From Pseudonocardia hierapolitana (GTDB lineage Bacteria; Actinomycetota; Actinomycetes; Mycobacteriales; Pseudonocardiaceae), in contig NZ_VIWU01000001.1 of assembly GCF_007994075.1 (NCBI RefSeq), forward strand, positions 8,680,001-8,744,000: DNA of 64,000 nt, given 5' to 3'. The notes under the pieces are model-generated. The model was given only the letters and a program-made list of their open reading frames with translations. It was not told the origin of the DNA and did no database searches. Shown here piece by piece: positions 27,398 to 38,396 of this stretch. Numbering within the stretch: the stretch's first letter is position 1; every line of letters begins with the position of its first letter. Both the position numbers and the translations under genes were made by a program.

Positions 27398-27769
27398 ATG
27401 ACCGGACGCGATCCCGCAGCCCTGGTGCGGCGGATGCAGGAGTGCTTCAACACACGGCAGTTCGACCAGGCCGACGACCTGTTCACCCCCGGCTTCTTCA
27501 GCCATGCGCTCGGCACCACCGGGTTCGAGGCGGGCAAACAGGCCTGGCGTGGCCTCGTCGCCCACTTCCCCGACTACCGCGTCGTCGCCCGGGACGTCAT
27601 CGTCGACGACGACAGGGTCGCTATCCGCTCCTCGGTCGAGGGCATCCCGGCCCCGGACGACGGCACGCAGCCGATGCTGATCGAGATCTTCCGCGTCGAC
27701 GACGGCCGGCTCGCGGAGATGTGGGGGCTCGGCCAGGGGCTCCCCCTCGAGAGGCTCCGGTTGCGCTAG
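27398..27769 (+). CDS. SnoaL-like polyketide cyclase / ester hydrolase-fold protein
   Basis: A 123-residue protein of the NTF2-like SnoaL group: MQECFNTRQFDQADDLFTPG, GKQAWRGLVAHFPDYRVVAR, and LIEIFRVDDGRLAEMWGLGQ, the typical end of the barrel with the conserved EhW-type strand. Such proteins are small isolated domains of varied function; nothing here points to polyketide synthesis. Regulation by the divergent TetR gene is likely. Its stop overlaps the stop of the convergent cation exchanger by 3-4 bases. Confidence 0.85.
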   Translation: MTGRDPAALVRRMQECFNTRQFDQADDLFTPGFFSHALGTTGFEAGKQAWRGLVAHFPDYRVVARDVIVDDDRVAIRSSVEGIPAPDDGTQPMLIEIFRVDDGRLAEMWGLGQGLPLERLRLR

Positions 27770-28827
27770 TCCACCTCGATCGGCGGCCCTCCGAAGACGC
27801 CGAAGCTGATCGCCCAGTAGGCGAGGTAGAGGGCCAGCAGCGTGACGCCGTGCCAGCGCCGCAGCCTGCCCGTGAAGATGAAGTAGGCACCCAGGCCGGT
27901 CACGATGATCAGGGCGGGCAGGTGCCAGGTGAGTACCTCCGGGTCGACCACGATCCCCCCGGCCAGGACGATGATGCCCAGCTTGCCGGTCACCGAGAAG
28001 ACGACGCTGCCGATGACGTTGCCCACGCCGATCTCCGGCACGCCGCGGCGGATCGGTTCGACGGTCAGGAAGATGTCCTCGATGGTGAGGACGGCGGTGG
28101 CGATCGTCGCGCCGAAGAGGGTGCCCTCGAGCCCGTAGGTCTCGAGGATGCCCTCGGTGCCGATACCCGTCACCGTGGCGCCGAGGATCAGCCCGGCGAG
28201 GGCGAGCACGGCCAGTCCGAGCCGGATCCAGCCGGAGCGGGCCCCGGTGGTGACGAATGGCATCGCGTCGGAGAAGGCGTGCGTGGGCTCCTCGTCCGGG
28301 GTGTCCGCGGACGCGACGGCCGTGCCGCCCCCGGTGCCGCGGGCCGCTGCGTACGCCTCGTAGATCTCGACGTCCCGGAAGACCGGGACGTCGCTGCGGG
28401 ACTCGCGCGCGGCGACCCACGCGATGAACACGACGAACAACGCCAGCAGGACCACGCCGTGCACGGCGGTGAGCGGTGCCATCAGCGTGAACGCGATCAT
28501 CACCAGCGGTGAGGCACCGAGGACGACGACGTACTCGCGCGGGATGTTCACGCGGGTGGGGGTCAGGAGCGCGGCGAGCGCGAGCACGACCCCGGTCATC
28601 GACAGCGCGGTGCCGAACACGACGCCGAGCGCGACGCCCTCGAGGTCCTCGAGGTTGAGCGCGACCCCGAGGAAGACGTCGTCGAACTCGATGCCGGTGA
28701 AGATGATCGCGAGCAGGAACACCGACACCCGCAGGCCGCTCGCCACCCCGACCAGGTAGCCGATCAGCTTCTCGGCGCTGAAGATCAACAGCGCGGCACC
28801 GCAGACGAAGACGAGGATCGATGTCAC
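27766..28827 (-). CDS. CaCA-like cation exchanger coupled to pqqE
   Basis: A 353-residue membrane protein with about ten helices in two halves, as in calcium/cation antiporters of the YrbG type. In ordinary members each half has a GTSxPE motif; here the first is replaced by FTGIEFDDVFLGVAL and the second by IATAVLTIEDIFLTVEP, so the ion site keeps acidic residues but in a different setting. GNVIGSVVFSVTGKLG after the second repeat is still canonical. GTG 28827 overlaps the pqqE stop (GTGA), placing it firmly in the PQQ operon. It may move Ca2+ or another cation relevant to PQQ enzymes; this is inference. Confidence 0.75.
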   Translation of the reverse strand: MTSILVFVCGAALLIFSAEKLIGYLVGVASGLRVSVFLLAIIFTGIEFDDVFLGVALNLEDLEGVALGVVFGTALSMTGVVLALAALLTPTRVNIPREYVVVLGASPLVMIAFTLMAPLTAVHGVVLLALFVVFIAWVAARESRSDVPVFRDVEIYEAYAAARGTGGGTAVASADTPDEEPTHAFSDAMPFVTTGARSGWIRLGLAVLALAGLILGATVTGIGTEGILETYGLEGTLFGATIATAVLTIEDIFLTVEPIRRGVPEIGVGNVIGSVVFSVTGKLGIIVLAGGIVVDPEVLTWHLPALIIVTGLGAYFIFTGRLRRWHGVTLLALYLAYWAISFGVFGGPPIEVD

Positions 28828-29924
28828 GGGACCACCTCTCGGGGATGCGGGCGGGGTGTCAGCACGACCTCCTGTGGACCCGCCGGGTCGTTCGCGGCCC
28901 GCACCGCGGCAGTGACGAGCTCGTGGTCCGGGGAGAGGTGGCAGACCGGGTCGGTGCGCGCGGCGTCGCCGGTGAGCTGGAACGCCTGGCAGCGGCAGCC
29001 CCCGAAGTCGAGCTCGCGGCGCTCGCAGCCGCGGCACGGCTCGGGCATCCAGTCGGTGCCGCGGAACCGCCGGAAGAGCGGTGACTCCTCCCAGATCCAG
29101 TCGAGGGACCGCTCGCGCACGTTCGCGCGAGGGAGCGGGAGCTCGTGCGCGGCGAGGCAGGGCAGGGCATCGCCGTTGGGCGCGACGACGAGCTGGCGGC
29201 TCGCCCAGCCGCCCATGCACGGCTTGGGGTAGCGCTCGTAGTAGTCGGGGAGGATGTAGAGGATCTGCATCCGGTCCCGAAGTCGCTCGCGCGCGGCCCG
29301 CACCGCCGTCTCGGCCCGTTCGAGCTGCGCCCGGCTCGGCAGCAGGCCGCCCCGGTTGCGCCACGCCCAGCCGTAGTACTGGGTGTTGGCCAGCTCGACG
29401 CGGTCGGCACCCATCGCCTCGACCAGCTCGAGGATCCCGTCGATCCGGTCGAGGTTCTGCCGGTGCAGCACCACGTTCACGGTCAACGGCCAGCCCAGCT
29501 CCTTGACCGTGCGCGCCGCGTCGAGCTTGCGCTGGTACGACGGCGTGCCGGCCAGCCGGTCGGACAGGACCGGCTCGTCGGCCTGCACGCTGATCTGCAC
29601 GTGGTCGAGGCCGGCCTCGCGCAGCTGCCCGGCGCGGGCCGGAGACAGGCCGAGCCCGCTCGTCACGAGGTTCGAGTACATCCCCAGCTCGCGGCCGGTC
29701 CGCACGAGCTCGACGACGTCGCGGCGCCGCAGCGGCTCACCTCCGGACAGGTGCAGCTGCAGCGCGCCCAGCTCCCTGGCCTCGGCGAGCACCCGTTGCC
29801 ACTCCGCCGTGGTCAGCTCGTCGCGGTAGTGGGCGAGCTCGAGCGGGTTGGAGCAGTACGCGCAGTGCAGCGGGCAGTCGTAGGTGAGCTCGGCAAGCAG
29901 CGCGAACGGACCGTCACTCCTCAT
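28824..29924 (-). CDS. pqqE: PqqA peptide cyclase (radical SAM)
   Basis: Radical SAM enzyme that cross-links the glutamate and tyrosine of PqqA, the first step of PQQ formation. The 366-residue protein has the radical SAM motif in LAELTYDCPLHCAYCSNPLE (CxxxCxxC), LHLSGGEPLRRRDVVELV, and a C-terminal SPASM region with CMGGW, LPCLAAHELPL, CRGCERRELDFGGCRCQAF that binds auxiliary clusters. It overlaps pqqD upstream and the cation exchanger downstream, which shows tight operon organisation. Confidence 0.96.
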   Translation of the reverse strand: MRSDGPFALLAELTYDCPLHCAYCSNPLELAHYRDELTTAEWQRVLAEARELGALQLHLSGGEPLRRRDVVELVRTGRELGMYSNLVTSGLGLSPARAGQLREAGLDHVQISVQADEPVLSDRLAGTPSYQRKLDAARTVKELGWPLTVNVVLHRQNLDRIDGILELVEAMGADRVELANTQYYGWAWRNRGGLLPSRAQLERAETAVRAARERLRDRMQILYILPDYYERYPKPCMGGWASRQLVVAPNGDALPCLAAHELPLPRANVRERSLDWIWEESPLFRRFRGTDWMPEPCRGCERRELDFGGCRCQAFQLTGDAARTDPVCHLSPDHELVTAAVRAANDPAGPQEVVLTPRPHPREVVP

Positions 29925-30228
29925 CGCGATCGACCTCCACGCACCGCCGCGCGAGGAGCCGGTCGAGGAACCCCCGCACCTCCTCGTCGACGACGCGGGA
30001 GTACCGCGCGCCCAGCTCGGCCACGATCTCGGTCACGGTGCGCTGTCCGTCGCACAGTTCGAGGACGGCCGTGCCGGTCGCGTTCAGCACGACGACGGTC
30101 TCCGGCGACAGGAGGACGTGCCGCTCCCGCGCCCGGTCGAACGTGAGCCGGACGTGCCGTGCCAGCCGGGGGCGGTCGCGGCTATCGATCTGCGTCGGCC
30201 CGGTCCGGATAGGCGGTGTCGATGGCAT
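29914..30228 (-). CDS. pqqD: PQQ biosynthesis peptide chaperone
   Basis: Small protein that binds PqqA and presents it to PqqE. The 104-residue product has [58 protein letters not shown] and a C-terminal helix, the standard PqqD winged-helix layout. ATG 30228 is the only plausible start and lies 47 bases inside the end of pqqC, a long overlap; the first dozen residues are outside the conserved domain. The gene overlaps pqqE by 11 bases. Confidence 0.92.
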
Positions 30229-30907
30229 CGAGCATGCTCCAGAGGACGTCGTTCTTGAACGAGAGCGCGGCGACCGCGGCGGCCTGCTCGGCCGGGGTGC
30301 GGCAGTACTCGGTGACGACCTCGAGGGCGTGCTCGGAGTCGCGGGGCGCCTGCGTGAGCCGGGCCCGGAAGTAGGCGAGCCCGGCGGGGTCGATCCACGG
30401 GTAGTGCCGCTCGAACGCGGCGAGGCGCTCGGCCATCAGGTCCGGCGCGAACAGCTCCGTCAGCGACGAGGCGACCGCCTCGACCCACGGGCGGGTGCGG
30501 GCGAAGGTCACGTACGCGTCCACGGCGAAGCGCACCCCGGGCACGACGTGCCGCTCGTCGGTCACCTCCGCCCGCGAGAGCCCCACCGCCTCACCAAGCG
30601 AGAGCCACGCCTCGATCCCGCCCTCGCCTGCGCTCGCGCCGTCGTGGTCGACGATGCGGCGGATCCAGCGGCGACGCACCTGCGGATACGGGCAGTTGGA
30701 CAGGATGGCGGCGTCCTTGCGGGGGATGTTCGCCTGGTAGTAGAAGCGGTTCGCCACCCAGCCCTGCACCTGCCCGCGGCTCAGCGAGCCCTCGTTCATC
30801 CGGCGGTGGAAGGAGTGCAACGAGTGGTAACGCTGGGACTGGGCGCGCAACGAGGCCACGAACTCGTCGGCAGCCACATGATCTGCGTCGGCCAGGGTCG
30901 CCGTCAT
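30182..30907 (-). CDS. pqqC: Pyrroloquinoline-quinone synthase
   Basis: Cofactor-free oxidase that performs the final ring closure and eight-electron oxidation to PQQ. The 241-residue protein contains [59 protein letters not shown] and [20 protein letters not shown], all characteristic. ATG 30907 overlaps the pqqB stop (ATGA), so translation is coupled. Confidence 0.96.
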
Positions 30908-31794
30908 ACCTGCACCTCCATGCCGTCCACGGCCACCTCCATGCCGTGCTCCTCGACGGTGCGCCGCTCTCGTGAGTCGTCGAGGAGGATCGGGTTCGTG
31001 TTGTTGATGTGGATGTAGATCTTTCGTGGGATCGGCAGCGGGGCGAGTTGCGCGAGGCTCCCACCGGGACCGTCGATGGGCAGGTGCCCCATGTCGCGGG
31101 CCGTCTTGCGGGCGAGCCCCAGCTCGATCAGCTCGTCGTCGCGCCAGCAGGTGCCGTCGACGAGCAGGCAGGAACAGTCCTCCAGCTGGTCGCGCACCGG
31201 GAGGAAGGCCTGCATGCCCGGCAGGTAGACGGCCGACCGGCCGGTGCGCTCGTCGGTCAGGCGGTACCCGACCACCCGGCCCTTCTCCGCGCCGGAACCG
31301 AAGCGGGCCCGCTTGCTCGTCGGCACGTCGAAGGCCCGGAACGAGAGCCCGTCGGCCAGCGAGGCGTCGGCGTCGGGAACCACCGGGTGCCAGCGCACCG
31401 GGCAGTACGCCTCGAGCGTGCGCAGGATCGACGTGCCGTCGGCGAGCGTGGCACGCACCGCCTCGGTGGAGTACACGTCGACGCCGCGACCCTCGCGCAG
31501 GAGAAGCAGGCCGAGCGTGTGGTCCAGCTCGGCGTCGGTGAGCAGCACCGCCTGCAGTGGCGTCCTGCGCCCGTCCCGCGGGCGCAGGGCGGGGGACGAC
31601 TCGATCTGGGTCCGGATGTCGGGTGAGGCGTTCAGCACGAACCAGCGGTGCCGGTCGGTGCTCACCGCCACCGACGACTGCGTGCGGGGCCGGCACGGCC
31701 TGCTGCCGTCCCTTACCGCCCGGCAGCCCGGGCAGTCGCAGTTCCACTGCGGGAACCCGCCGCCCGCCGCCGACCCCAGCACGCGAATCCACAC
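30904..31794 (-). CDS. pqqB: PQQ biosynthesis protein B (metallo-beta-lactamase fold)
   Basis: Iron-dependent hydroxylase of the metallo-hydrolase fold acting on the tyrosine of the PqqA cross-linked product. The 296-residue protein has [20 protein letters not shown] at the N-terminus with its cysteine motif, [29 protein letters not shown] (metal-site Asp/His), [18 protein letters not shown] and [18 protein letters not shown] 31794 is the start; its ribosome site lies within a segment that can be paired in a hairpin (see 31800-31838). Confidence 0.95.
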
Positions 31795-31848: not shown

Positions 31849-31938
31849 TCAGTCGTCCATCCGAGCGACGTACATCGTCACCTCGGGCGCGCACGCGAAT
31901 TCCTCGAACTCGGGGGTCTCCCATTCAGCGAGCTCCAC
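31849..31938 (-). CDS. pqqA: PQQ precursor peptide
   Basis: A 29-residue peptide too short for routine gene finding. It ends [16 protein letters not shown]; the E-x3-Y spacing (Glu and Tyr of EVTMY) is the pair that becomes PQQ. The N-terminal part is acidic ([13 protein letters not shown]) with the tryptophan typical of PqqA. GTG 31938 is chosen because GGAGG lies 8 bases upstream; the in-frame GTG at 31947 touches that ribosome site and is unlikely. It sits between the PQQ dehydrogenase gene and pqqB on the same strand. Confidence 0.92.
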
Positions 31939-31983: not shown

Positions 31984-33684
31984 TCACTCCTCCGGAAGCG
32001 CGAAGGCGATCAGCGCGCTGCCGTGGCCCGCGCCGAGCATTCCGGGCAGGAATCCCTCGGCCCATCCACCCCAGCCGACCGGCACGGCGATGTACTGCCG
32101 GCCGTCCACGCTGTAGGTCGACGGGCTGCTGTGGTGGCCGCTGCCGCACTGGAACTGCCACAGCTGCTCGCCGGTGCGGGCGTCGAGCGCGACGAACTCC
32201 CCGGTCGGCTTACCCGCGAACACGAGGTCGCCGCCCGTGGCCAGCGTCGACGCGCACATGGGCAGGTCGTTGCGGTAGCGCCACTTCTCGTCGCCATTGG
32301 CGTCGAACGCACTGATGGACCCCGCCATGTCCTCGATGTCCACCTGAACGCCCGCGCCCCAGTAGGGGATGCTCTCCTTGAACTCCCGGCGGCGCCGGGT
32401 GGCGGTCGCCCCGGTGTCCTGCACCGGGACGTAGAAGAGCTCGGTCTTCGGGCTGTAGGAGGCGTGCGTCCATTCCTTGGCACCCGCCGGGCCCGGGTAG
32501 AAGTGGACCGGTTCTCCTTCCTTGTCCGGGTAGACCTTGGCCGTCACCTGACCTTCCCTCGTGATCGCGCCCCACGTGATGCGGTCCACGAAGGGGGTGA
32601 TGCCGACCCGCTCGCCGTTCGTGCGGTCGAGGACGAAGAAGTATCCGTTCTTGTCGAAGTGCCCGAGCAGTTTGCGCCCGCCCGACTCGAACAGGATGCA
32701 TTCCGCGATGCTGTCGTAGTCCCACAGGTCATGCGGCGTGCACTGGTAGTGCCAGCGGATCTGGCCGCTGTCCGCGTCGACCGCGACGATGCTGTCGGTG
32801 AAGAGGTTGTCGCCCTCCCTGACCTCGCCGTCGAAGTCGGGCGCCGGGTTGCCGGTGCCCACGTACAGCAGGTTGGTCTCGGCGTCGAAGGTGCTGGTGA
32901 GCCAGCAGTTCGCGCCGCCCCGCGCCCATGCCTCGCCGTCGGATGGCCACGTCTCGGAGCCGGGCTCGCCGGGCTTCGGGACCATGTAGCAGCGCCACTG
33001 GTGCTCGCCGGAGTCGACGTCGAACGCGTCGAGGTGGCCGCGGACACCGAACTCACCGCCCGAACTGCCGACGATGACCAGGTTCTTCACGACCAGCGGC
33101 GCGACCGTGGCGCTCTCCCCGGCCCGCACGTCCCCGTAGGTCTTGTCCCATACGCGCTTGCCGTTGGTGGCGTCGAGCGCGAGTACGTGGGCGTTCGCGG
33201 TGACGAAGAAGACCTTCCCCTTCGCCACGGCGACCCCGCGGTTCACGTTCCCGCAGCACAGGGACACGTCGAATGGGACCGCGTGCTTGTAGCGCCAGAT
33301 CTCCACGCCCGTCTTCGCGTCGAGGGCCCACATCCAGCCGTCCCAGCCGGAGACGAACATGATCCCGTCGACGACGATCGGCGTGGCCTCGAACGAGTAG
33401 GTCGACGCACCCGCGATCAGGCCCGTCGTGCCGGCCTGGAAGACCCACGCCGGAAGGAGCCGTCTGACGTTCTCCGTGTTGATCTGGTCCAGCGGGCTGT
33501 AGCGCTGCCCGTTGTACGCCCCGTAGTAGGTGAGCCAGTTCTGCGGCTCCTCGCGGGCGTTGAGGATGCGCTCGTAGGTGACCTCGGCCACCACCGGTGG
33601 GGCGACATCCGCACCCGGGGTCTTGTAATTCAGCAATGCCTGGTCGATGGCCTCGCCCGCGTCGACGTAATCAGCAGTCGTCAT
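31984..33684 (-). CDS. PQQ-dependent alcohol dehydrogenase, lanthanide-type active site, no signal peptide
   Basis: Eight-bladed quinoprotein of 566 residues. Adjacent cysteines C143-C144 (SLCCGN) form the usual strained disulfide; metal ligands correspond to E211 (SSGGEFGVRG) and N279 (GTGNP), and the catalytic aspartate is D322 in TPHDLWDYDS. A second aspartate follows at D324, the marker of lanthanide-dependent XoxF/ExaF-type enzymes; calcium enzymes have Ala or Ser there. There is no cytochrome c domain. The N-terminus MTTADYVDAGEAIDQAL shows no signal peptide, and the start is well supported by GGAGG, so where the enzyme works is unclear. Substrate not predictable. It forms an operon with the cupredoxin-like gene and the pqq genes. 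Confidence 0.93.
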   Translation of the reverse strand: MTTADYVDAGEAIDQALLNYKTPGADVAPPVVAEVTYERILNAREEPQNWLTYYGAYNGQRYSPLDQINTENVRRLLPAWVFQAGTTGLIAGASTYSFEATPIVVDGIMFVSGWDGWMWALDAKTGVEIWRYKHAVPFDVSLCCGNVNRGVAVAKGKVFFVTANAHVLALDATNGKRVWDKTYGDVRAGESATVAPLVVKNLVIVGSSGGEFGVRGHLDAFDVDSGEHQWRCYMVPKPGEPGSETWPSDGEAWARGGANCWLTSTFDAETNLLYVGTGNPAPDFDGEVREGDNLFTDSIVAVDADSGQIRWHYQCTPHDLWDYDSIAECILFESGGRKLLGHFDKNGYFFVLDRTNGERVGITPFVDRITWGAITREGQVTAKVYPDKEGEPVHFYPGPAGAKEWTHASYSPKTELFYVPVQDTGATATRRRREFKESIPYWGAGVQVDIEDMAGSISAFDANGDEKWRYRNDLPMCASTLATGGDLVFAGKPTGEFVALDARTGEQLWQFQCGSGHHSSPSTYSVDGRQYIAVPVGWGGWAEGFLPGMLGAGHGSALIAFALPEE

Positions 33685-33699
33685 GTCATCTCCTCCTTC

Positions 33700-34164
33700 C
33701 TACGGCCGCGGCTGTTCGGGCCGGTCGAGTCGGGCCTCCGGTGGTACCTCGCCGAGCACGACGATCGCGCCGGTGAGCCCCCGGCCCTCGTCGTTGCCGG
33801 TGGGCGAGCTGAACCAGTAGTAGCCCGGTCCGTCGAGGTTGAGCGTCGCCCGTCCCCGGGAATGGTTGACCAGCCAGATGAACTTCCGGTCGCCATTGCT
33901 CGGCAGGAGCGCGCAATGCGTGTTCAGGTCGTCGTTGATGAGTGTGAGTTCGAGATCGCCGCCGTGCGGAAGGACCAGGACCGACGGGTCCCAGCACAAC
34001 TCGTCCGGGTTGATCCGGACCGTCGCCTCCATGCGGCCGTCGCTTTTCTCCGTGGCCTGCGCAATGTTCCCGGTCGCCAGTACGCGACCCAGCGCCGCCT
34101 TGTTCTGGCCGTCCAGGCCGAGCTTGCCCATCAGGGCACTGCGCTCCTGCGCGGTACTCGTCAC
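33700..34164 (-). CDS. Cupredoxin-fold protein lacking copper ligands
   Basis: A 154-residue protein. After an alpha-helical leader (residues 5-40) comes a beta domain ending GPGYYWFSSPTGNDEGRGLT and GAIVVLG, the shape of a plastocyanin-type copper site. The expected Cys, His and Met of that loop are Ser, Asn/Asp and Leu, so a type 1 copper site is unlikely; only H83-C84 (NTHC) remain elsewhere. No signal peptide is seen. GTG 34164 is chosen, since GAGGAGG lies 8 bases upstream, whereas GTG 34173 touches the ribosome site. It directly precedes the PQQ dehydrogenase (15-base gap), suggesting a partner or chaperone role; that is inference. Confidence 0.75.
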   Translation of the reverse strand: MTSTAQERSALMGKLGLDGQNKAALGRVLATGNIAQATEKSDGRMEATVRINPDELCWDPSVLVLPHGGDLELTLINDDLNTHCALLPSNGDRKFIWLVNHSRGRATLNLDGPGYYWFSSPTGNDEGRGLTGAIVVLGEVPPEARLDRPEQPRP

Positions 34165-34206: not shown

Positions 34207-35337
34207 TCATGCGACTTCCGGTTTGAGAATGACCTTCGTGAAACCCTCGGCCTGCCGCTCGACGCTCTCGTAGGCGCTGGGCGCCTCGGCGAGCGGCAAC
34301 TCGTGGGACACGACGAAACCGGGGCTGGCCCGGCCCTGCGTGATCAGGTCGCGCAGCTGCCGGTTGTACCGCTTGACGTTCGCCTGCCCGGTTCCCACGC
34401 GCAGTCCCTTCTCGAACAGCGCGTCGAGCGCGAAGGGCAACCGGCCCGGATCCGACGGCACGCAGTGGCCGGGCACACCGAGCGAGCCCGCGGGGCGTAC
34501 GACCTGCACGAGCAGGTTCAGCGCCTGGTTCGGCGCGGCCGCCGGTTCCGACCGGTTCCCGGACGCCGCGACGACCTGGTGGCCCGTGGCGTCGATCCCC
34601 CGGTCGGTGCCCTCCCCTCCGGTCAGGTCCCTGATCTGCTGGACCGGGTCCCCTTCGGCGAGGTCGATCGCGACCGCGCCGATCTCCCGGGCCGTGGCGA
34701 GCCGCGCGGGCACGCGGTCGACCACGAAGACCTGGGCGGCACCGCGCAGCAGCGCGCAGTACGCGGCCATCAGCCCGAGGGCCCCGGCGCCGAACACCGC
34801 AACGGTCTCCCCCGGGGAGACGCCCGCGAGCTCACACCCGTGGTAGCCGGCGGCGAAGACGTCCGCGAGGAGCGTGTAGTCCGACTCGTGATCGATTCCC
34901 GGGGGCAGGAGCATGCAGTTGAAGTCCGCGAAAGGCACCCGCAGGTACTCGGCCTGACCTCCCGGATAGGGTGCGATCGCGGAGTTTCCGCACACGCCGA
35001 GAGCGACGCCCTGCGGGTTCACGGTCAGGCAGAAGCCGCTGAGGCCGGCCACGCAGTTCTTGCAGAAGCCGCAGGCGATGTTGAACGGCATCACCACGCG
35101 ATCGCCCCGCTCCAGACCGGTGACGCCGCTGCCGACGTCCTCGACGATCCCGAGGTTCTCGTGGCCGAACACGATCCCGGGCTCCGCCGCGGTCCGGCCC
35201 TCGTACAGATGCAGGTCCGAGCCCGAGATGCCGGTGGACGTGATCCGCACGACTACGTCGTTCGGGTGCTCGATGCGCGGATCGGGTACCTCCTCGACGG
35301 CGAGGTCGAAGGGTTTCCGGTACACCACCGCCCGCAT
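34207..35337 (-). CDS. Zinc-dependent alcohol dehydrogenase, glutathione-independent formaldehyde dehydrogenase-like
   Basis: A 376-residue medium-chain dehydrogenase. It has TSTGISGSDLHLYEGR with Ser in place of the usual catalytic-site Cys, FGHENLGIVEDVGSG, the structural-zinc region CGFCKNC...FCLT, and the NAD site VAVFGAGALGLMAAYCALL. The insert and the overall layout match formaldehyde dismutase / FdhA-like proteins. It could oxidise the aldehyde made by the quinoprotein encoded next to it. ATG 35337 is the start. It is the first gene of the minus-strand PQQ transcription unit and diverges from the GAF-LytTR regulator gene. Confidence 0.88.
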   Translation of the reverse strand: MRAVVYRKPFDLAVEEVPDPRIEHPNDVVVRITSTGISGSDLHLYEGRTAAEPGIVFGHENLGIVEDVGSGVTGLERGDRVVMPFNIACGFCKNCVAGLSGFCLTVNPQGVALGVCGNSAIAPYPGGQAEYLRVPFADFNCMLLPPGIDHESDYTLLADVFAAGYHGCELAGVSPGETVAVFGAGALGLMAAYCALLRGAAQVFVVDRVPARLATAREIGAVAIDLAEGDPVQQIRDLTGGEGTDRGIDATGHQVVAASGNRSEPAAAPNQALNLLVQVVRPAGSLGVPGHCVPSDPGRLPFALDALFEKGLRVGTGQANVKRYNRQLRDLITQGRASPGFVVSHELPLAEAPSAYESVERQAEGFTKVILKPEVA

Positions 35338-35535: not shown

Positions 35536-36969
35536 ATGAACGGCGCCAAGGGCCCAACGAGCGGGGCGACACCCGCAACGAGCGGTGTGGCGCTCGCCGA
35601 CGCCGACGTCCGCGCCACGAGTGCCGCCTGGGAACGATTCGCGGCCGGGGCGGAGTCGGTGGACGGGGTGCGGCCCGAGATCCTCATGTCCTGGTACCGG
35701 TGCCGCGAGGAGTACGAGGTCGACCCGCACCTGGATCGCGCACCGCCCGCGGCGGAGGTGGGCGCGCACTCGATCGACCACGACGTGGTGTACGCCGAGC
35801 TCGGGGGCATGGCGGCTTCCGCGGCCCGTGAGGTGGACGGGCTGGACGGCATCGTCACCGTGGCGGACGGCGACGGCCGGATCCTCGGGACGTGGGGCAG
35901 CAGGCGCATCCTCCACCAGGCCGCCGACAGCAACCTCGCCCCGTGGTCCACGTGGTCGGAATGGGCGAGCGGCACCAACGGCATGGGCACGGCCCTGGAG
36001 AGCCACCGCCCGGTGCTGGTGCGCGGCCCCGAGCACTGGTGCCAGGGGTTCCACGAATGGGTGTGCGCCGGTGTCGCGGTCCGGGACGTCGTCACCCACG
36101 AGCCGCTGGCAGTGCTCGACGTCTCCTGCTGGAACAGCCCGCTGTCGGCGGACGTGCTGCCCTGGCTGGGCAAGGTCGCCGCGGCCACCGAGGCCAAGCT
36201 GCGGCAGCGGGCCCACCACAGCGGCACGCTCCTCGCGGCCGCCCTCGGCGACCTCCGCGTCGCACCCGAGACCCCGCTCGCCGCCGTGGACCTGGCCGGG
36301 AGCGTCGTGCTCGCGAACAGCGAGGCCGCCGTGCTGATGGGCACCCCGGCCGACCAGCCCGCCTACGCGCCCGCGCACCGCTTCACGCCCCAGCTCTCGG
36401 CGCTGCCGATCCTGGTGCGCCGCGCGGTGGAGCGCGCCCGCAAGGACCCGGACTGGACGGGGTCGACGCAGGTCCACGTGCCGTTCCTGGACATCACCGT
36501 CCCGGTCGTGGTCCGGCCCGTCTTCACCGGCACCCAGCTGATCGGCATGCTGCTCGCGTTCGGGTCCGCCGGTTCCTCCGGCTGCGAGCAGCCGGCCGGC
36601 TACCTCGTTCCCGCCGCGACGACGGGCCCGCTCCCGAGCCGGGTCGTCGCACTGCGGGACGACCGCTGGGTACTGCTGGACCCCCGCGAGATCCGCTTCG
36701 CCGAGGCCGACCACAACACCGTCTGGCTGGCCACCGACCAGGGCCGACTCGTGGCCGCGACGCGAGGCCTCGACCGCCTCGAGCAGCAGCTCGAGGACAA
36801 GGGCTTCCTCCGCGTGCACCGCCGGTTCCTCGTGAACCTCAGCCGGGTGCGGGAGGTCGAGCAGGGCTTCAAGGGCGCGCTCTTCCTCGCCACCGACGCC
36901 CGCTCGCGCGAGACGGTGCCGGTCTCGCGCCGGCACGCGTCGCAGCTGCGTCAGACGTTCGGGCTCTGA
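35536..36969 (+). CDS. GAF-LytTR transcriptional regulator of the PQQ locus
   Basis: A 477-residue regulator. Residues about 25-215 form an AcoR/AdhR-type N-terminal sensor with a GAF domain (RPEILMSWYRCREEYEVDP, SEWASGTNGMGTALE, GPEHWCQGFHEWVCAGVAVR). In sigma-54 activators this sensor is followed by an AAA domain; here instead comes a PAS-like middle part (APETPLAAVDLAGSVVLANS) and a LytTR DNA-binding domain from about 370 (RLEQQLEDKGFLRVHRRFLV, NLSRVREVEQ). AcoR-type sensors respond to alcohols or acetoin, so control of the divergent alcohol-oxidation operon is plausible. ATG 35536 follows AGGGAG. Confidence 0.88.
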   Translation: MNGAKGPTSGATPATSGVALADADVRATSAAWERFAAGAESVDGVRPEILMSWYRCREEYEVDPHLDRAPPAAEVGAHSIDHDVVYAELGGMAASAAREVDGLDGIVTVADGDGRILGTWGSRRILHQAADSNLAPWSTWSEWASGTNGMGTALESHRPVLVRGPEHWCQGFHEWVCAGVAVRDVVTHEPLAVLDVSCWNSPLSADVLPWLGKVAAATEAKLRQRAHHSGTLLAAALGDLRVAPETPLAAVDLAGSVVLANSEAAVLMGTPADQPAYAPAHRFTPQLSALPILVRRAVERARKDPDWTGSTQVHVPFLDITVPVVVRPVFTGTQLIGMLLAFGSAGSSGCEQPAGYLVPAATTGPLPSRVVALRDDRWVLLDPREIRFAEADHNTVWLATDQGRLVAATRGLDRLEQQLEDKGFLRVHRRFLVNLSRVREVEQGFKGALFLATDARSRETVPVSRRHASQLRQTFGL

Positions 36970-36982
36970 GCGGAGCGGCCGC

Positions 36983-37462
36983 TCAGAGCTTCAGGAGCAC
37001 GTTGGAGCAGCTGGAGAGGTCGATGCCCTTCTCGTCGACGTCGAGGCTGGTCAGCACGCCGTCCTCGACGATCGCCGCGTAGCGCTTCGAACGCCTCCCG
37101 AGCCCGAAGCCGCTGCCGTCCAGCTCGAGGCCCATGGCCGCGGTGAACTCGCCGTTGCCGTCGGCGAGCAGCACGATGTCGTCGCCGACGCCGTGGGCCT
37201 TGCCCCAGGCGTCCATCACGAACGGGTCGTTGACCGCGACGCACGCGATCGTGGTGACACCCTTGGCCTTCAGCTCGTCCGCCCGCTCCACGAACCCGGG
37301 CAGGTGGATGTTGGAGCAGCCCGGCGTGAACGCGCCCGGCACGGCGAACAGCACGACCTTCCCGGTGCCGAGCACCTCGCCGCTCTTCACGACGGTGGGG
37401 CCGTCCGCGGTCATCGTGCGCAGCTCGGCGTCGGGGAGCCGGTCGCCAACGGAGATCGTCAT
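36983..37462 (-). CDS. Peroxiredoxin, Prx5-like
   Basis: A 159-residue thiol peroxidase that reduces hydrogen peroxide or organic peroxides. The peroxidatic cysteine lies in VPGAFTPGCSNIHLPGFVER, the Prx5/PMP20 signature; a second cysteine is near the C-terminus (DLSSCSNVLLKL) and could be the resolving residue. WGKAHG and the MGLELDGSGFGLGRRSKRYA block are also typical. ATG 37462 gives the standard N-terminus MTISVGDRLPDAEL. It converges with the GAF-LytTR gene. Confidence 0.94.
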   Translation of the reverse strand: MTISVGDRLPDAELRTMTADGPTVVKSGEVLGTGKVVLFAVPGAFTPGCSNIHLPGFVERADELKAKGVTTIACVAVNDPFVMDAWGKAHGVGDDIVLLADGNGEFTAAMGLELDGSGFGLGRRSKRYAAIVEDGVLTSLDVDEKGIDLSSCSNVLLKL

Positions 37463-37472
37463 GCGGTTCAAC

Positions 37473-38396
37473 CTACGCCGGACGCTCCGCCCGTTCCGCG
37501 AGCGCGTGAGCGGCACCACGCGGCACCACGACCACCGGCACCGGCGAGTGCCGCACGATCCGCGACGAGCGGGAGCCGATGAACACGTGCTCGAGCGGGC
37601 CCGCGGTGCTGGACCCGACGGCGAGGAGGTCCCCGTCCTCCCAGCCGATGTCCTCGATCGCTCCCGCCCAGTCGCTGCCGTACCCCACCGCCGACGCGAG
37701 CGCGGACGGTTGCCGGGGCAGCCGCTCGACCTGCTCCAGGACGGCGCGCTGGGCCCGCTCGACCTCCGCCGCCCACTCGCGCGCCACGGCGTCCTCGGCC
37801 CGGGAGCCGATCCCGGCGGTCAGCGGCGTGCGCGGGCGCACGGCGAACGACGCGACGCGCAGCGCGGCCTTCGCCCGTGCGGCCACGCCCGCGACGGCGA
37901 CGACCAGCTCGTCCGCGCCCTCGGTGGCGTCGAACGCGGCCGTCACCCGGCGGACCGTGGCATCGGCCCGGCAGCGGAAGCCGCGGGGGCCGAGCACCAC
38001 CGGGAGCGGTGAGCTGTGCAGCAACCGGTCCGCAACGCTGCCGAACGCGACGCGCCCGAGCACCCCCGCCGTGGACGAGCCGAGCACGAGCAACCGGGCG
38101 CCGTGCTCACGCGCGACGTCCAGGAGGCCCACCGACGTCGAGCGCGCCCTGGCGACGACGAACGAGGCCGGGCGGTCGCCGGGCACCAGGCGCCGGGCCT
38201 GCTCGATCGCCTCCTGGGCGCTGCGGTCGAGGTACTCCTGGTACTCGGCGTCGACCCGCGCCATACCGGGCGGCCAGGGCGGCGGCACCACCGTGCACAA
38301 GAGGAGGTCCGCGTCGAGCGAGCGGGCGAGCATCACGCCGAGGTGCACGGCGGCCGTCGCGCGCTCGTCGCGGGGCAGCCCGACGAGGACGGTCAT
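37473..38396 (-). CDS. Tandem universal stress protein
   Basis: A 307-residue protein made of two UspA domains. The first starts VLVGLPRDERATAAVHLGVM and ends LVLGSSTAGVLGRVAFGSVA; the second ends LLAVGSSTAGPLEHVFIGSR with SRIVRHSPVPVVVVP, the ATP-binding G-2x-G-9x-G(S/T) type motif. The ATG overlaps the stop of the upstream permease gene (ATGA), so the two are co-translated; USP-permease pairs are common and often couple transport to stress or nucleotide status. Confidence 0.92.
   Translation of the reverse strand: MTVLVGLPRDERATAAVHLGVMLARSLDADLLLCTVVPPPWPPGMARVDAEYQEYLDRSAQEAIEQARRLVPGDRPASFVVARARSTSVGLLDVAREHGARLLVLGSSTAGVLGRVAFGSVADRLLHSSPLPVVLGPRGFRCRADATVRRVTAAFDATEGADELVVAVAGVAARAKAALRVASFAVRPRTPLTAGIGSRAEDAVAREWAAEVERAQRAVLEQVERLPRQPSALASAVGYGSDWAGAIEDIGWEDGDLLAVGSSTAGPLEHVFIGSRSSRIVRHSPVPVVVVPRGAAHALAERAERPA

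Follow-up and report, generated by a model that had tools for sequence, protein, structure and literature searches.

The described enzymes with which the PQQ-dependent alcohol dehydrogenase (ADH) studied here can be compared are the PedH/ExaF lanthanide ethanol dehydrogenases and the XoxF methanol dehydrogenases. A 2024 survey (PMC10875860) met no XoxF in its Gram-positive genomes and, in one passage, calls this unsurprising, XoxF being periplasmic. For Arthrobacter isolates with xoxF-like signals, a passage of PMC5606694 describes growth with Ce or Ca, one isolate growing significantly better with Ce. In Mycobacterium smegmatis, the region MSMEG_3721-3727 has been described, in a passage of Haft 2011 (PMC3023750), as a pqq cassette with the lone PQQ-ADH of that cassette, MSMEG_3726; the region also holds the gene that gives its name to the family of the partner protein discussed below, and we liken it to our locus by this published description. 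Location, metal, and copper ligands do not come up in these passages or in those of PMC6529628 on the cluster. The family is already known, in that the partner is in databases (TIGR04339/PF23509) and MSMEG_3726/3727 are named in print. In the titles, abstract openings, and passages returned by our literature search, we found no report of a cytosolic lanthanide enzyme, of relocation, or of copper loss in TIGR04339.

The window analyzed here is a stretch of 64,000 nucleotides from the genome of Pseudonocardia hierapolitana, which consists of one contig of 8.86 Mb. The ADH is encoded on the minus strand by an open reading frame of 566 codons that runs from an ATG at 33684 to 31984, and the protein matches the genome at this locus alone (E ≤ 1e-50). 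The features of the region are as follows.

27766..28896, minus strand: cation transporter of the Na/Ca-exchanger family (PF01699), after pqqE; start codon not fixed; this type (CaX) or an MntP-like protein recurs beside relatives
28824..29924, minus strand: pqqE (TIGR02109)
29914..30228, minus strand: pqqD (TIGR03859)
30182..30907, minus strand: pqqC (TIGR02111)
30904..31794, minus strand: pqqB (TIGR02108)
31849..31938, minus strand: pqqA precursor peptide, 29 residues, likely GTG start
31984..33684, minus strand: PQQ-dependent ADH, 566 residues, no signal peptide; E211, N279, D322, and D324; vicinal C143-C144; no CxxCH
32710..32739, minus strand: catalytic motif TPHDLWDYDS with the extra Asp324 (residues 316–325, translated from these bases and aligned to PedH and ExaA)
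33700..34164, minus strand: cupredoxin-fold partner (TIGR04339/PF23509, MSMEG_3727 family), likely GTG start at 34164, longest open reading frame from 34173; ligand positions H-S-D-L
34207..35337, minus strand: zinc-type dehydrogenase, similar to glutathione-independent formaldehyde dehydrogenase and scoring under the cut-off of that family; precedes the partner gene
35536..36969, plus strand: divergent LytTR-domain regulator; a homologue lies near 17 of 37 relatives
36983..37519, minus strand: peroxiredoxin (Redoxin/AhpC-TSA) for peroxide handling, close to the operon

With 623.2 bits against a curated cut-off of 480.05, the window ADH is a member of the PQQ-dependent methanol/ethanol dehydrogenases (TIGR03075). 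The preliminary description of this DNA, made from the letters alone, had read the gene as a lanthanide-signature PQQ-ADH, and the open reading frame, the TPHDLWDYDS motif with D322 and D324, and the family score all bear this out. It had also proposed structural modeling of the metal site. The predicted structure (pLDDT 86.9) has PedH as its top Foldseek match (E 3.2e-57, 38% identity), and among solved structures PedH is also the highest-scoring relative by sequence (372.8 bits, versus 325.2 for ExaA and 299.7 for the best XoxF). The window ADH shares with XoxF the fold and the extra Asp two residues past the catalytic Asp; it differs in its lower similarity, for which reason (299.7 bits or less versus 372.8 for PedH) an identity as XoxF was rejected, and in that no cytochrome c was found among ten neighboring window proteins scanned. 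A quinohaemoprotein alcohol dehydrogenase was rejected as well, since the 566 residues contain no haem c domain or CxxCH motif and the Pfam matches are to PQQ/propeller families only.

For comparison, we used 38 actinobacterial ADHs (window included), 27 further actinobacterial ADHs from loci selected solely through the partner gene, a basal ADH (L017), 11 sister ADHs from Gemmatimonadota and one Armatimonadetes metagenome-assembled genome (MAG; the contig is short and may be mis-binned), and 48 outgroup ADHs. E211, N279, D322, and D324 of the window ADH align with E199, N281, D323, and D325, the metal ligands of PedH according to a table in PMC11845868. Thus, all four PedH ligands are shared, as is the fold; unlike PedH/ExaF, the window ADH has no signal peptide, has a cupredoxin-fold partner, and carries Lys345 where PedH has Arg. 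D322 is the catalytic Asp and D324 the extra one, a position at which the calcium enzyme ExaA has Ser in the alignment. Asp324 is present in 38/38 actinobacterial ADHs, 30 of which were retrieved by a scan that had the D324 motif among its patterns and was biased to that extent, in 27/27 of those picked by the partner gene, and in 30/30 loci of another partner-picked set, to which the window's own locus belongs and which shares members with the 27. No catalytic or metal residue varies across the 38; among the 27, Asn279 is replaced by Asp once. Sister ADHs have Asp at the 324 position in 10 of 11 cases and Glu in the other (L156). Asp324 in the outgroup (48/48) was left out as evidence because the scan patterns contained the motif. 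The recurrence of Asp324 in these alignments is beyond chance, and the predicted site is of the lanthanide type, although Asp324 alone is no proof of lanthanide use. We consider it probable that the actinobacterial ADH uses a lanthanide.

The preliminary description had further stated that the protein lacks a signal peptide and that its start is marked by a ribosome site. Both points hold: AGGAAGGAGGAG lies immediately 5′ of the ATG, and an in-frame stop occurs five codons before it, so that no upstream start can add a signal peptide, the open frame contributing only EGGDD. The longest open reading frame of the partner likewise meets a stop 11 codons upstream and gains no hydrophobic stretch. 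To score relatives, we counted as signal-like an uncharged hydrophobic 11-mer within the 85 residues before the domain, which is a crude rule of our own, combined with inspection by eye, and not SignalP. By this hydrophobicity rule, such a segment is found in 0/38 actinobacterial ADHs, 0/27 of the further ones, 1/1 for L017, 11/11 sisters, and 36/48 of the outgroup, where the 12 missed ADHs include some (L066, L074, and L079) whose signals are visible by eye and have N or H in them, and others with N-terminal extensions. Export by a signal peptide of the PedH/ExaF type is therefore not found for the window ADH, which has no suitable in-frame start, or for its 38-member group. A conserved N terminus resembling M(T)xxYVDAGxA runs across relatives.

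Cysteine content also differs between the groups. The catalytic part of every sister ADH contains four Cys (columns 143, 144, 396, and 425), compared with a mean of 7.8 (range 5–12) in the 38 and 7.0 (6–9) in the 27. The 396/425 pair occurs in 11/11 sisters and 24/48 outgroup ADHs and in 0/38, 0/27, and 0/1 (L017), and extra Cys appear in the actinobacterial branch at columns such as 232 (25/38), 260 (27), 477 (26), and 513 (33). The lost pair and the new Cys would fit a shift to a reducing compartment. All 38 and all 27 keep the vicinal pair C143-C144, the site of a disulfide in exported relatives, and this retention does not fit easily with such a compartment. Weighing these features, we regard a cytosolic location of the actinobacterial ADH as very likely.

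The gene directly upstream of the ADH, on the same strand, encodes the partner in 40/40 loci with an ADH above 600 bits; none was found at the 48 outgroup loci. The window partner scores 284.7 bits with TIGR04339 (cut-off 75) and 276.1 with PF23509 (cut-off 27), and its model has a cupredoxin fold (pLDDT 83.5), which it has in common with auracyanin and other cupredoxins. At the positions of the type-1 copper ligands His-Cys-His-Met, however, it reads H-S-D-L. These changes (Cys to Ser, the second His to Asp, and Met, with few exceptions, to Leu) characterize the actinobacterial branch: among the 120 actinobacterial-type partners listed of 2143 matches, 119 have H-S-D-L and one H-S-D-M, and at the 27 further loci, 18 have S-D-L, three S-D-M, and six escaped the pattern searched for and, by eye, have SxxGNDEGRGL. 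Conversely, all 120 Gemmatimonadota-type partners among the matches listed (120 of 1280) have H-C-H-M. Since the fold is kept and the ligands are replaced, the partner has lost the copper center usual for this fold, and we conclude from the residues present that electrons cannot pass to a type-1 copper in the actinobacterial partner. In one scan of viral contigs, no relative of the partner protein was confirmed. The pqqA-E genes, the partner, and its lost copper site are absent from the preliminary description, and we judge them to be more telling features than those it gave.

The Gemmatimonadota loci (L051, L154-L162) and L050 resemble the window in gene order and families, with the partner followed by the ADH, but differ in having ADH signals and an H-C-H-M partner. 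The window ADH is 61–63% identical to those of L051 and L050. Lipoprotein-like signals were seen by eye on the sister ADHs (11/11) and sister partners, and of the Gemmatimonadota-type partners, 119/120 were flagged by crude signal rules (111 by a lipobox rule and eight more by hydrophobicity). Three actinobacterial partners were also flagged, and on inspection none has a signal at its start (L027 and L039 owe the flag to an upstream in-frame extension and P0166 to an internal match). In a tree of 97 sequences, calculated without L054 (375 residues) and without XoxF sequences, support was 100 for the outgroup split, 99 for the clade of actinobacterial ADHs plus L017, and 96 for the actinobacterial clade; the sister group was unsupported as a clade, and each label requires one change. 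By parsimony, the signal appears to have been lost once. The basal relative L017/L163 (ADH at 9590-11383 of L163) carries a hydrophobic segment at the N terminus of its ADH, and its partner reads H-S-N-L; it is perhaps an intermediate between the signal-bearing and signal-less forms. As judged by these comparisons, the actinobacterial ADH and partner are shown to have a common origin with the Gemmatimonadota pair of an ADH and a type-1-copper-type protein, which is lipoprotein-like and bears signals.

The ADH/partner pair is patchy yet wide in Actinomycetota, occurs in several families, and often comes with pqqB-E. In a phylum-wide draw, 14/396 genomes match the ADH at E ≤ 1e-50; 12 of these matches (the window's included) are 59–100% identical, some being broken or split, and the remaining two, at 39–44%, are different, signal-bearing proteins. 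Within the window's own family, the partner is above its cut-off in 74/248 genomes, and the best 80 loci include carriers in Pseudonocardia, Streptomyces, Amycolatopsis, Saccharopolyspora, Geodermatophilus, Kineosporia, Paenarthrobacter, Solirubrobacterales, and others. The view that a Gram-positive cytosolic quinoprotein would be unusual stands in part: a cytosolic location is likely by comparison, but the protein is not peculiar to one genome and its family is in databases. Among Gemmatimonadota, the partner was above the cut-off in 2/200 genomes of a phylum-wide draw (three at E ≤ 0.001) and in 9/21 genomes of the family of L051, probably Longimicrobiaceae. Some labels look mis-binned, namely those of two 93%-identical proteins from “Dehalococcoidia” MAGs (P0007 and P0008) and that of a PQQ-ADH contig titled Klebsiella pneumoniae (L064). 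Two loci of the same phylum, L021 and L022, hold separate exported-looking PQQ-ADHs with, by eye, a lipobox-like signal, a C-terminal CxxCH stretch, and a WDYD motif.

Neighboring genes were counted at the first 38 loci, of which the window is one and several have short flanks, and in 36 further regions, which include nine repeats (L169, L181, L184-L190) and from which L200, having no ADH, was left out. The loci are related and were not drawn randomly from all carriers, so that the counts represent non-independent events. At the first 38, an MntP-like protein was found 16 times and CaX nine times (either, 24), a LytTR regulator 18 times, and pqqE 20 times; KatG was found 15 times and an R2lox-like protein (a relative of R2-like ligand-binding oxidases) seven times, with no overlap, giving 22/38 with either. 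The further regions gave 17 MntP-like, 13 CaX (either, 29), 21 pqqE, 18 KatG, and six R2lox, again with no overlap between the latter two (24/36 with either). Without the repeats, MntP-like or CaX occurs at 23/27 and KatG or R2lox at 23/27. KatG was not found beside 23/38 loci, the window among them, and 18/36, some of these having short flanks; the KatG-less loci with R2lox relatives near the operon include L030, L040, L041, L047, L049, L052, L077, and others. A homologue of the zinc dehydrogenase was found beside only 1/37 relatives (L047). Twenty control regions 100–300 kb away, in 20 of the same genomes, gave 0 matches to the neighbor queries. The 11 sister loci showed no MntP-like, CaX, KatG, R2lox-like, LytTR, or pqqE gene, and their stretches of 3.5–20.6 kb no pqq, KatG, or transporter homologue; the 48 outgroup loci showed KatG once and pqqE once. 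As for annotation, the MntP-like protein belongs to PF02659 and scores well under the cut-off of the MntP equivalog; CaX does not reach that of TIGR00367, nor R2lox those of its families. From these neighbors, we infer that the transporters would serve cytosolic metal handling and that KatG or peroxiredoxin would point to oxygen or peroxide chemistry.

On balance, the protein sequences and their neighbors favor a cytosolic, PedH-like, lanthanide-type PQQ alcohol dehydrogenase whose electrons take a copper-free route, perhaps to oxygen. PQQ would be loaded in the cytosol, the pqq genes adjoining the ADH in the window; the four-ligand site of E211, N279, D322, and D324 would hold a lanthanide; and the ADH would oxidize an alcohol to an aldehyde. 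In the next step, electrons would pass to a cytosolic acceptor. There is no obvious acceptor for a cytosolic PQQ enzyme; we favor oxygen, reached directly or via a small carrier, as a tentative and rather doubtful candidate. Peroxide from an oxygen route would be removed by the neighboring KatG or peroxiredoxin, the copper-less partner may persist as a subunit for binding or gating, and the nearby cation transporter would set cytosolic metal supply or efflux. The genome also encodes a mycofactocin maturase (G000:C1:4132829-4133842, 657.9 bits). Mycofactocin was rejected as a general acceptor because the family cut-off is reached in only 23/40 carrier genomes, with the four Streptomyces and three Micrococcaceae carriers below it. 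The boldest version of the scheme, a first cytosolic lanthanide enzyme that acts as a PQQ/lanthanide alcohol oxidase passing electrons to oxygen, with peroxide removal by KatG or peroxiredoxin, lanthanide supplied or cleared by the transporter, and an ex-blue-copper partner serving as a copper-free subunit or handling lanthanide via its new acidic loop GNDEG, is unlikely to be correct in full.

The same observations can be read in other ways. The metal of a cytosolic PQQ-ADH could be divalent, either Ca2+ or, for instance, Mn2+, the extra Asp being an inherited residue; the neighbors are of the Na/Ca-exchanger and MntP families, and R2lox-like proteins, whose family binds Mn/Fe, recur. Yet Asp324 is present in all 38 and all 27 ADHs, PedH is the closest solved relative while ExaA, with Ser at this position, scores lower, and free Ca2+ in the cytosol is very low, which together make a divalent metal a somewhat unlikely choice. 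If the ADH left the cell by an unrecognized route (co-export, type VII, or lysis), it could act at the cell surface like its relatives. This would be in keeping with the conservation of the vicinal Cys pair, with a fold seen otherwise in exported proteins, and with the hydrophobic N-terminal segment of the L017 ADH. We consider such export improbable, given that the partner is also signal-less, the second Cys pair is absent, extra Cys have appeared, the copper site is lost, and other exported-looking actinobacterial PQQ-ADHs bear signals by eye (L021, L022, and L072).

It is also conceivable that the protein is a degenerate or repurposed quinoprotein without a catalytic role, for example, a sensor or a PQQ sink. 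The loss of the partner's copper route would agree with this, as would a passage of PMC6529628, according to which growth of M. smegmatis on ethanol requires mycofactocin and an overlapping PQQ-dependent function was excluded under the authors' conditions. The invariance of the catalytic and metal residues in the 38 and the presence of pqqE near 20/38 and 21/36 loci make a noncatalytic protein very hard to credit, and the cytosolic lanthanide-type dehydrogenase remains the reading that we prefer.

Actinobacteria of several families thus seem to use inside the cell an enzyme that is otherwise known to act beyond the cell membrane. The signal-bearing sister pair with its copper ligands is the natural comparison for the signal-less actinobacterial pair, and the question raised is where the electrons of a quinoprotein go without cytochrome c or copper. 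If the reading is true, a cytosolic lanthanide-type enzyme would mean that rare earths are put to use within Gram-positive cells.
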